In this document: piece after piece, positions 18,422 to 21,437 of the stretch | How positions within the stretch are numbered: position 1 is the stretch's first letter | Layout of the letters: each line of letters opens with the position of its first letter | Assembly: GCF_003347015.1 (NCBI RefSeq) | Contig: NZ_PNFB01000014.1 | Location: 1 to 64,000, forward strand | Reading direction: 5' to 3' | DNA: 64,000 bases | DNA from: Brachybacterium sp. YJGR34 | Lineage (GTDB): Bacteria > Actinomycetota > Actinomycetes > Actinomycetales > Dermabacteraceae | Program-made: the position numbers and the translations under genes | The notes under the pieces: model-generated | What the model was told of the DNA's origin: nothing | The model's database searches: none | Seen by the model: only the letters and a program-made list of their open reading frames with translations

Positions 18422-20581
18422 TCAGTCGAGCGCCACCCGGTGCACGAGCACCGTGAACTCCTCGTCGTGGCCGTGCTCGCGCGCCCGCAGCCGACCGCCC
18501 TCGAGGGAGAGGGGTCGGGCCCGCTTGACGACCACGCCGCCGCGACCGTCGACGATCCCCATCGGGATCTCCGTCTCCTGCGCGATCGCCTCGAGCAGGC
18601 GGTCGGTGACGGACAGCTCCGTCTGCCCGTCCTCGGCCGCGCGGATCCGCGCGACCGCCTCGGCGGCGGGCAGGGGCAGGGCCGGGCCCTCGATCGTGAC
18701 CAGGTCGGGGTCGACCGGTCCGCCGCGCAGGGAGTGCGAGAGGTCGGCCGGCACCGGCCGCCCGTCGGCGCCGACGGCCTGCGGCGCGAGCCCCGCCTGC
18801 CGGGCCACCTGCAGCGCGTAGCCGGGATCGCCCAGGCTGATCGCGACGGTGGGGGCCAGGCGGTGCAGACCGAGGGAGGTGGCCTCCGGGGCCGCCTGCA
18901 GCAGGTCCAGCACCTCCGGCTCCGCGGTGAGGACCGTCTGGGCGCGGGAGATGCGCAGGCGGCCGTGACGGCGCTGCTCGTCCTGCAGCAGATAGCGCAG
19001 GGATTGCGGCACGGGGGAGCGGGAGGCGTCCTCGAGCAGCGCGAGCAGGGCTTGCGCGTCCCGGCCGTCCCCGAGGGCTCGGCGCACCGAGGCCGCGGTG
19101 AAGCGGAGCGTGAGGGCCCCGCCGCGGGAGATCGGCTCGGTCCAGTCCAGCAGCGGCAGCAGGCGCTCCGCGGGCCGTCCGGGGACCACGGCGGTCAGAT
19201 CGGCGTCCAGCAGCACCTCGTCGACCGGCGGCGGCGCCGCCTCCGTCAGGGCGGCGGCGAGGCGGGCGTCGGCCGCGGTGACGTCCTCGTCGAGGGCGAG
19301 CACCAGCTCGTGGCCCAGCAGGGTGAGCGCCCCGCCGTCCAGCAGGCCCAGCGCCCGGCCCTCGACCAGCAGCGCCGCGACCTCCTCCCGGATCACCTCG
19401 GCGGGCACCAGCGGGAAGGACCAGGAGAGCGCGGCGGCGAGGGACTCCTCGGTGGCGTCCAGGCCCGGGGAGGTGCGCAGGATGCGCAGCAGCACGGTGC
19501 GCCGCGTGCGCACCCCGTCCCGGCGCGTGAGGTCCGACATCAGCGAGCGCCCGGTGCCCGAGGAGTCCGGGGTCCCCACCACGGCCGCCAGGTGGTGCCC
19601 GGCGGCCCAGGCCAGCACCAGCTCCGCCCAGCGCTGCTCGGCGCCCTGGAGCCGATGGGCGTCCCAGTCCGCCGTGGGACGCCATTCCTGGCCGTCGTGG
19701 CCCAGCAGTCCGGCCTCCCAGGCCGACTGCAGCACGGTCGCATAGGTGAGCAGCGGCGCCCCGGCGCGCTCCGCGAGCCGCCGCAGGTCCCGCTGCGGGA
19801 TCCCGCCGCGGCGCAGCACCCCCGGCGGGTCCTCGTCGAAGCTCCGCACCGTGCCCAGCAGTCGCAGCGCCTCGACGGCCCGCTCGACGGCCTGGGCCGT
19901 GCGGGAGCCGGGGATGCGCTCGGTGAGCTCGGGGCCCTCCGGAGCGGGCCGCTGCGCGGCGTGGCTGCGGCGCACCCGACCGCCGCGCAGGGCCAGGTGG
20001 ACGGGGCGGGGGATGCGGAGCGCATCGCCGTCGGCCACCACGATCCCGGCCTGCCGGAGGCGGCCGGCGAGCGTCCCCGTCCCCTGGACGGTGGGCGGGC
20101 CCCAGGCGAGCGCGTCGAGCACCTCGGGGGCGCGCCGGCGCACCGCCTCGACGCGTCGGAGGGCCTCCTCGGGCGAGGGATCCTCGGGATGCTCGGCGGC
20201 CAGGCCCGCGGGGGTGCGCAGCCCCTCCCGCAGCGGCCGCACCAGATGCAGCGCGTCCTCGCCCCACAGCACCGCGAGCGTGGTCAGCCGCTCCAGCTCC
20301 GGGGAGATCGACGCCGGGTCGGAGGAGACCGCCGCGGCCAGGCGGGCGGGGGAGACGCCGTCCTCGAGCACCGCGAGCGCCTCGACCAGGTGGAGCTCGG
20401 GGAGGGTGAGGGAGTCCAGCGCCCGGCGCGCGGAGGTGGCGCCGGCGGCGCGTGCCGCCAGCGGTCCGATGCCCCGCGGCACGGGCGAGGCGAGGTCCGG
20501 TCGGGCGACGAGCAGGGCCTCGAGGCGGTCGTCGCCGAACCGTCGCAGGGAGTCCGCGAGGGATCGGATGGGCGCGGTCAT
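18422..20581 (-). CDS. Helicase-associated domain protein (partner of XPB)
   Basis: A 719-residue protein matching the large actinobacterial family annotated as helicase C-terminal/XPB-Ssl2 domain containing (the mycobacterial member lies beside the XPB gene). The N-terminal half contains winged-helix-like segments (TLPELHLVEALAVLEDGVSP, then SPEEALRRVEAVRRRAPEVL). The C-terminal half has ADLTAVVPGRPAERLLPLLD, TLRFTAASVRRALGDGRD and a final beta-rich domain. There is no Walker A, so it is not an active helicase itself. A role with XPB in DNA repair is an inference from genomic linkage. The ATG at 20581 has GGAG 7 bp upstream; an ATG at 20596 is an alternative. Confidence 0.85.
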   Translation of the reverse strand: MTAPIRSLADSLRRFGDDRLEALLVARPDLASPVPRGIGPLAARAAGATSARRALDSLTLPELHLVEALAVLEDGVSPARLAAAVSSDPASISPELERLTTLAVLWGEDALHLVRPLREGLRTPAGLAAEHPEDPSPEEALRRVEAVRRRAPEVLDALAWGPPTVQGTGTLAGRLRQAGIVVADGDALRIPRPVHLALRGGRVRRSHAAQRPAPEGPELTERIPGSRTAQAVERAVEALRLLGTVRSFDEDPPGVLRRGGIPQRDLRRLAERAGAPLLTYATVLQSAWEAGLLGHDGQEWRPTADWDAHRLQGAEQRWAELVLAWAAGHHLAAVVGTPDSSGTGRSLMSDLTRRDGVRTRRTVLLRILRTSPGLDATEESLAAALSWSFPLVPAEVIREEVAALLVEGRALGLLDGGALTLLGHELVLALDEDVTAADARLAAALTEAAPPPVDEVLLDADLTAVVPGRPAERLLPLLDWTEPISRGGALTLRFTAASVRRALGDGRDAQALLALLEDASRSPVPQSLRYLLQDEQRRHGRLRISRAQTVLTAEPEVLDLLQAAPEATSLGLHRLAPTVAISLGDPGYALQVARQAGLAPQAVGADGRPVPADLSHSLRGGPVDPDLVTIEGPALPLPAAEAVARIRAAEDGQTELSVTDRLLEAIAQETEIPMGIVDGRGGVVVKRARPLSLEGGRLRAREHGHDEEFTVLVHRVALD

Positions 20582-20595
20582 GATGCGCTCCAGCA

Positions 20596-20601
20596 TAGGC
20601 T
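20596..20601 (+). promoter_or_regulatory. Putative -10 box (TAGGCT) for the short tRNA
   Basis: TAGGCT ends 8 bp before the first acceptor-stem base, so transcription would begin at about the mature 5' end. No good -35 hexamer is seen. Confidence 0.4.
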
Positions 20602-20609
20602 GGGTCCCC

Positions 20610-20683
20610 GCCCCCATAGCCCAATCGGCAGAGGCGGCCGCCTTAAAAGCGGCGCAGTACGGGTTCGAGTCCCGTTGGGGGCA
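20610..20683 (+). tRNA. Class I (short variable loop) tRNA with anticodon UAA
   Basis: The cloverleaf is complete: a perfect 7-bp acceptor stem (GCCCCCA/TGGGGGC), a 3-bp D stem with GG in the loop, a 5-bp anticodon stem (GCCGC/GCGGC), loop CTTAAAA with anticodon TAA at 20644-20646, a 5-nt variable loop (GCAGT), a perfect 5-bp T stem and loop TTCGAGT. The discriminator is A; CCA is not encoded. The anticodon would read leucine UUA, yet bacterial tRNA-Leu is class II with a long variable arm, which is absent. It may be a leucine-like tRNA outlier or have a non-standard role. A TAGGCT box lies just upstream and yggS just downstream. Confidence 0.85.
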
Positions 20684-20711
20684 CGCGGGCGGATCCGCCA
20701 CAATGGTGGCC

Positions 20712-21437
20712 ATGGCCTCCTCCTCCGCTGAGCTCTCCGACCGTCTCGACGCCGTGCTCGCACGGATCGACGCCGCCGCGACGCGCGGGGGACGGGACGG
20801 GCGGGAGGTCACTCTGCTGCTGGCCACCAAGACCCGCACCCCGGCGGAGATCGCCGCCGCGGTGGAGGCGCTGCGGGAGCGGGGCCGCTCCTTCGCGGTG
20901 GGGGAGAACCGGGCGCAGGAGATCGCCAAGCATGACGACCCGCTGCTCGCGGGCAACGGCGTGCCCCGTCACTTCATCGGCCGCCTGCAGACCAACAAGG
21001 CCCGGGACGTGGTCGCCTTCGCGGAGCTGATCCACAGCGTGGACCGCGACGACATCGCCGACGCCCTCGAGCGCCGCGCCGCCCTCGCCGGCGTGGTCCG
21101 CGAGGTGCTGATCCAGGTCAACACCTCGGGGGAGGAGTCCAAGGGCGGCTACGCCCCGACCCTCGAGGCCCTCGCGCCGGTCGTGGAGCGGCTGCGCTCC
21201 AGCGCGACGCTGCGGCCCGTCGGCCTCATGACGATCGGGGCGAACACCTCCGAGCAGACGGCCGTGCGGGCCTCCCTGCACCGGCTGCGGGAGCTGCGGG
21301 ACGCCCTCCGCGACGAGCTGGACGTCCCGGGGATCGACCAGCTCTCGATGGGGATGAGCGGGGACCTGGAGATCGCCGTCGAGGAGGGCGCGACGATCGT
21401 GCGCGTGGGCTCGGCGGTGTTCGGCCCGCGCCCCTGA
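20712..21437 (+). CDS. YggS-family pyridoxal phosphate homeostasis protein
   Basis: A 241-residue PLP-binding protein with a single alanine-racemase-like TIM barrel, thought to maintain vitamin B6 and amino/keto acid balance without a defined catalytic reaction. Family markers are LLLATKTRT (PLP lysine), VGENRAQEI, HFIGRLQTNKARDVV, IHSVDR, VLIQVNTSGEESKGG, GLMTIG and LSMGMSGDLEIAVEEGATIVRVGSAVFG. I use the ATG at 20712, which lies 7 bp after CACAAT; an ATG at 20703 is the alternative. It follows the tRNA by 28 bp and could be co-transcribed. Its stop is 7 bp from the convergent ROK gene. Confidence 0.92.
   Translation: MASSSAELSDRLDAVLARIDAAATRGGRDGREVTLLLATKTRTPAEIAAAVEALRERGRSFAVGENRAQEIAKHDDPLLAGNGVPRHFIGRLQTNKARDVVAFAELIHSVDRDDIADALERRAALAGVVREVLIQVNTSGEESKGGYAPTLEALAPVVERLRSSATLRPVGLMTIGANTSEQTAVRASLHRLRELRDALRDELDVPGIDQLSMGMSGDLEIAVEEGATIVRVGSAVFGPRP

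Follow-up and report, generated by a model that had tools for sequence, protein, structure and literature searches.

A class I tRNA-Leu(UAA) with a short variable loop as the probable UUA-decoding tRNA of Brachybacterium sp. YJGR34, and its occurrence across the Actinomycetota

Leucine tRNAs with and without a long variable arm

According to a 2023 review, tRNA-Leu carries a long variable arm everywhere except in animal mitochondria (PMC9976931). In E. coli, a tRNA is marked out for leucine by A73, A15-U48, G18G19 and A20a and not by the variable arm or the anticodon, and a truncated E. coli tRNA-Leu from which this arm is missing can still be charged, the arm being dispensable for a bacterial LeuRS as shown for this species (PMC9976931). 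The animal mitochondrial tRNA-Leu(UUR), for which the charging determinants are mainly A73 and A14 (PMC9976931), likewise lacks a long arm and reads UUR codons, but it belongs to another lineage and is served by another enzyme, whereas the tRNA described here forms a canonical, stable cloverleaf and is found in free-living bacteria.

A tRNA-Leu(TAG) with a short variable loop has been reported from a tRNA cluster in Mycobacterium (PMC6582537). It too is an actinobacterial leucine tRNA, but it is an extra copy in a mobile-looking cluster with the normal class II isoacceptor alongside, whereas the genome described below has no UAA tRNA other than the short one. In M. tuberculosis, only tRNA-Leu-2, 3 and 5 have been named as long-looped (PMC11541572). 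The tRNA-Leu genes of Citrobacter phage Moogle (L383) and mycobacteriophage Kykar (L384) have a short loop and share 80–84 % identity with an actinobacterial class I tRNA-Leu(UAA), though they are phage-borne, have the anticodons UAG, CAA and UAA, and are each one of many in an array. Beyond the TAG copy of PMC6582537 and what PMC11541572 implies, the open-access papers searched yielded no account of a class I tRNA-Leu(UAA). Such genes are routinely annotated as tRNA-Leu, and specialists may therefore be aware of them.

The tRNA gene at 20610-20683 and its identity elements

The window, a stretch of 64,000 nucleotides from Brachybacterium sp. YJGR34 (contig NZ_PNFB01000014.1, positions 1 to 64,000), includes a single Rfam match, to the tRNA family RF00005 at 20610-20683. 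The match is full length (model positions 1–71) and reaches 59.4 bits (E 2.7e-10), well over the gathering score of 29, and ARAGORN predicts a tRNA-Leu(taa) on the forward strand at 20610-20684. In order, the gene reads GCCCCCA TA GCCCAATCGGCAGAGGC G GCCGC CTTAAAA GCGGC GCAGT ACGGGTTCGAGTCCCGT TGGGGGC A. The acceptor stem (GCCCCCA at 20610-20616 with TGGGGGC at 20676-20682, supported by covariation), the anticodon stem (GCCGC/GCGGC) and the T stem (ACGGG/CCCGT, within the T arm ACGGGTTCGAGTCCCGT at 20659-20675) are all perfect. The D arm GCCCAATCGGCAGAGGC (20619-20635) has a stem of 3 bp followed by a C13.A22 mismatch, which is the layout of leucine tRNAs, and includes A14, A15, G18, G19 and A20a. 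The anticodon TAA (20644-20646) lies in the loop CTTAAAA. The variable loop GCAGT (20654-20658; family consensus NCAGT) is only 5 nt long, and so falls outside class II, in which the arm has at least 10 nt and its own stem; its terminal U48 is able to pair with A15. The discriminator is A73 (20683), and the next three nucleotides are CGC, the 3' CCA being absent from the gene. The UAA-anticodon tRNA with an intact cloverleaf, a 5 nt loop and no long arm that was described in the initial annotation is thus confirmed by ARAGORN, by Rfam and by reading of the stems.

With a completeness rating of 100 %, the genome contains 49 tRNAs and one full-length leuS. Its class II leucine tRNAs have the anticodons CAA, CAG, UAG and GAG, and the class I tRNA at 20610-20683 is the only one with the anticodon UAA. 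A class II tRNA-Leu(UAA) hidden elsewhere in the genome was considered, and neither the Rfam tRNA search nor a pattern search found one, as is required if the short tRNA is the ordinary one. Compared with class II tRNA-Leu(UAA) such as bldA of Streptomyces, the short tRNA shares the anticodon, A73, A14, A15-U48, G18G19, A20a, the same 3-bp D stem and the same codon, but differs in its variable region (5 nt versus 13–17 nt in the bldA type), in its acceptor stem (GCCCCC versus GCCCGG) and at position 13 (C versus G).

Leucine identity was scored using the elements given in PMC9976931 plus A14, and all of them (A73, A14, A15-U48, G18G19 and A20a) are present in the short tRNA. In this genome, A73, A14, A15, U48 and a leucine-type D loop occur together only in the four class II tRNA-Leu and the short tRNA, the D arm of which, GCCCAATCGGCAGAGGC, is laid out like that of the UAG leucine tRNA, GCGGAACTGGCAGACGC. 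Among 168 distinct class I UAA sequences, A14 was found in all 168, A15 and U48 in 167 each, and A73 and the leucine D loop in 163 each. In the remaining five the discriminator is G73, which is unusual for leucine and would be expected to make leucine identity weaker. Relatives with G73 in the class I UAA tRNA include some of the same family (L081, L088, L101 and L105).

The acceptor stem and T arm of the short tRNA are nearest to those of tRNA-Glu(UUC) from the same genome. In a tree built without the anticodon and variable region, the leucine tRNAs of the two classes cluster together, with tRNA-Glu intruding because of these shared acceptor and T-arm letters, and the leucine grouping is weakly supported (0.56) once tRNA-Glu is removed. 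An origin from tRNA-Glu is disfavoured, as the D loop, A15-U48 and the tree point to leucine. The likeness to tRNA-Glu(UUC) and the G73 of a few relatives would nevertheless suit a tRNA charged with some other amino acid, UUA then being reassigned or ambiguous in this lineage, at low cost where the codon is so rare. Set against this are the retention here of the full set of leucine identity elements, the codon alignments described below, and the presence of the same tRNA in mycobacteria, nocardiae and corynebacteria, none of which is known to have a changed code.

Conservation and genomic context

In 30 diverse relatives, 99 % of the stem pairs are kept and both sides have changed at 15 of the 20 pairs, compared to 81 % of pairs kept and 8.1 two-sided changes in shuffles, none of 500 of which reached the observed values; when partners were slid, at most 51 % of pairs were kept. 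A search of 98 relatives gave homologues in 93, though some of the weakest matches are other tRNAs, and the anticodon was TAA in all 30 same-genus loci checked. Conservation beside yggS, proposed earlier as a check, is seen in Dermabacter hominis and at most loci of the genus, where yggS directly follows the tRNA in the same orientation. In the window, this yggS-like gene for a PLP homeostasis protein (20712-21437, forward strand, predicted start approximate) was identified from the Pfam domain Ala_racemase_N and from synteny.

Phage tRNA arrays often contain class I leucine tRNAs of this family, which might suggest a prophage remnant or degenerate relic. However, the stems are perfect, their pairing is maintained among the relatives, the gene is nearly universal in the genus with its position beside yggS conserved, and the genome holds no class II substitute. 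The stems, covariation, conservation and synteny therefore indicate that this class I tRNA-Leu(UAA) is no relic, a status that had been raised initially and that we consider scarcely credible.

Upstream, a divergent gene for a helicase C-terminal-domain protein (18422-20581, reverse strand; Helicase_C_3) is separated from the tRNA by a conserved motif, CATAGGCT or CAGCATAGGCT-like, at 20590-20605, which is also found at L031–L060. The motif CATAGGCT was considered as a promoter for the tRNA and rejected; its distance to the tRNA varies from 8 to 45 nt while that to the helicase start is nearly fixed, and it is therefore more likely, and indeed probably, the promoter of the divergent helicase gene. 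A generic sigma-70 scan found nothing.

When 297 genomes from the class were searched by pattern, 175 showed a class I UAA tRNA and 84 a class II one, some of the latter by chance, and the two patterns separate almost completely by family. Similar short tRNAs do occur in other actinobacteria, as mentioned in the initial annotation. The genus with bldA-like sequences, presumably Streptomyces, has class II only, and other families have class I only. Named genomes with class I UAA tRNAs among the matches listed include Mycobacterium, Mycolicibacterium, Nocardia, Rhodococcus, Gordonia, Corynebacterium and Pseudonocardia, as well as Microbacterium, Arthrobacter, Kocuria, Dermabacter, Microbispora, Actinomadura and Blastococcus, and the pattern is also found in other classes of Actinomycetota. 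Hence, class I tRNA-Leu(UAA) appears from these sequences to replace the class II (bldA type) form, almost mutually exclusively, across the phylum. In some families, including near-complete genomes of f35 and f36, no UAA tRNA of either class was detected by pattern (G132, G133, G150, G165, G166, G191, G192 and others), and in f35 and f36 genomes UUA may be unreadable or may be read by another tRNA.

The CAA tRNA is also class I, with no class II CAA tRNA found, in the three genomes checked, namely G121, G276, which we take to be a Mycobacterium, and G063. Class I tRNA-Leu(CAA) was observed at L405 (G121), L433 (G276), L116 (G063), L102, L111 and L113–L115, and both UUR leucine tRNAs are short in many actinobacteria, whereas a class II CAA tRNA is kept in the genome of the window. 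Class I UAA and CAA tRNAs in G276 are consistent with the implication of PMC11541572 that the remaining two tRNA-Leu of M. tuberculosis are short. As judged from the tRNA genes, the long-arm rule of PMC9976931 is contradicted for much of the Actinomycetota, Mycobacterium included.

Class I tRNA-Leu(UAA) genes were also found on MAG contigs labelled Blastocatellia, Phycisphaera, Armatimonadetes and Deltaproteobacteria (L347, L351, L370 and L311). No class II UAA tRNA was seen by pattern in these MAGs, and the taxon labels may be binning errors. Class I leucine tRNAs (UAG, CAA and UAA) occur in the tRNA arrays of phages of E. coli and other enterobacteria, Erwinia, Pseudomonas, Lactobacillus and mycobacteria (H1–H98), and such arrays are a possible route of spread. 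A broader proposal is that the UUR codons of several bacterial phyla were captured by a separate class I lineage, possibly phage-spread, after GC pressure had removed UUA and the long-armed UAA tRNA, the short tRNA being kept in near-UUA-less genomes for a few switch genes or for incoming DNA; we think this rather unlikely. A further UAA tRNA with a 9 nt variable loop (GCGGGCGTAGGCCAACGGCGAGCC...), seen at L149/L213 (G266 C3) and at G140 C9:276313-276346, has the same sequence throughout the matched stretch in both of the families concerned and looks mobile.

UUA codons and the role of the class I tRNA

UUA was thought from the outset to be very rare, and indeed no more than 4 of 114,890 codons in this genome are UUA (ORFs chosen by third-position GC, 464 kb), these four probably representing false ORFs or wrong starts. 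As UUA is nearly unused here, its meaning was examined in G121, a distantly related genome from the class (1.34 Mb, 48 % GC) in which UUA is common. The tRNA set of G121 was read almost completely. Its leucine tRNAs with the anticodons UAG and GAG belong to class II and those with UAA and CAA to class I; within that set no UUR tRNA of class II was found. Codons in 400 kb of G121 were aligned to homologues in E. coli and in G000. UUA faces leucine at 28 of 70 positions (40 %) in the comparison with E. coli and at 47 of 103 (46 %) in that with G000, similar to UUG (51 % and 50 %) and the CUN codons (44–56 %), while AUG, AUU, GUA and UUU, non-leucine codons of similar chemistry, face leucine at only 10–21 %. 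Both UUA and UUG therefore mean leucine in G121, in which the tRNAs able to read UUA are all of class I.

Reassignment of UUA is thus unsupported by the alignment of codons to amino acids in G121, where UUA matches leucine at the rate of other leucine codons, and we judge it very improbable. By anticodon, the tRNA at 20610-20683 is likewise a tRNA-Leu, UUA having been tested as a leucine codon in this relative. The earlier concern that LeuRS might fail to recognise a tRNA of this shape runs counter both to the complete leucine identity elements and to the UUA and UUG codons at leucine positions in class-I-reliant G121.

A role outside routine decoding, either as an aminoacyl donor or as a switch like bldA acting on a few genes with UUA, might explain why the tRNA is conserved although the surveyed genes contain almost no UUA, and the UUA tRNA of Streptomyces, bldA, does act as a switch (PMC4255298). 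It has been argued in the same paper that the bldA role may not reach beyond Streptomycineae. Moreover, the tRNA is the sole UAA tRNA of its genome, its homologues occur in genomes where UUA is common, and its neighbours are only yggS and the helicase-like gene, with no linked biosynthetic or transferase genes. The restricted or non-ribosomal role initially suggested is also at odds with the leucine positions of the G121 codons and with the lack of a class II tRNA-Leu(UAA), and we regard such a role as improbable.

We have high confidence that the tRNA at 20610-20683 is the ordinary elongator tRNA-Leu for UUA of this genome in a class I form, and very probably it is not a special-purpose RNA. 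The same short form is the only UAA tRNA in most Actinobacteria, and it is therefore almost certainly charged with leucine and working normally. We infer a lineage of leucine tRNAs, descended from a long-armed tRNA-Leu, that would have dispensed with the arm but retained A73, A14, A15-U48, G18G19 and A20a. A single LeuRS would charge the class I tRNA alongside the four class II leucine tRNAs, most likely docking at the A73 end and the elbow (A15-U48 and the contacts of G18G19 with the T loop) as in E. coli and ignoring the absent arm. In this organism, the charged tRNA would then read UUA, and possibly UUG, at the ribosome.

Work that relies on arm length to identify leucine tRNAs or to flag conflicts between anticodon and isotype, and models of LeuRS recognition, should admit two structural classes under one enzyme. 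Reasoning about toxins or drugs that act on mycobacterial leucine tRNAs should allow for both classes. These tRNAs also offer natural material for testing what LeuRS reads, and they raise the question of why the class I form and the bldA-type tRNA are nearly mutually exclusive. The interesting part is that class I UUR leucine tRNAs appear to be the standard set in much of the phylum.
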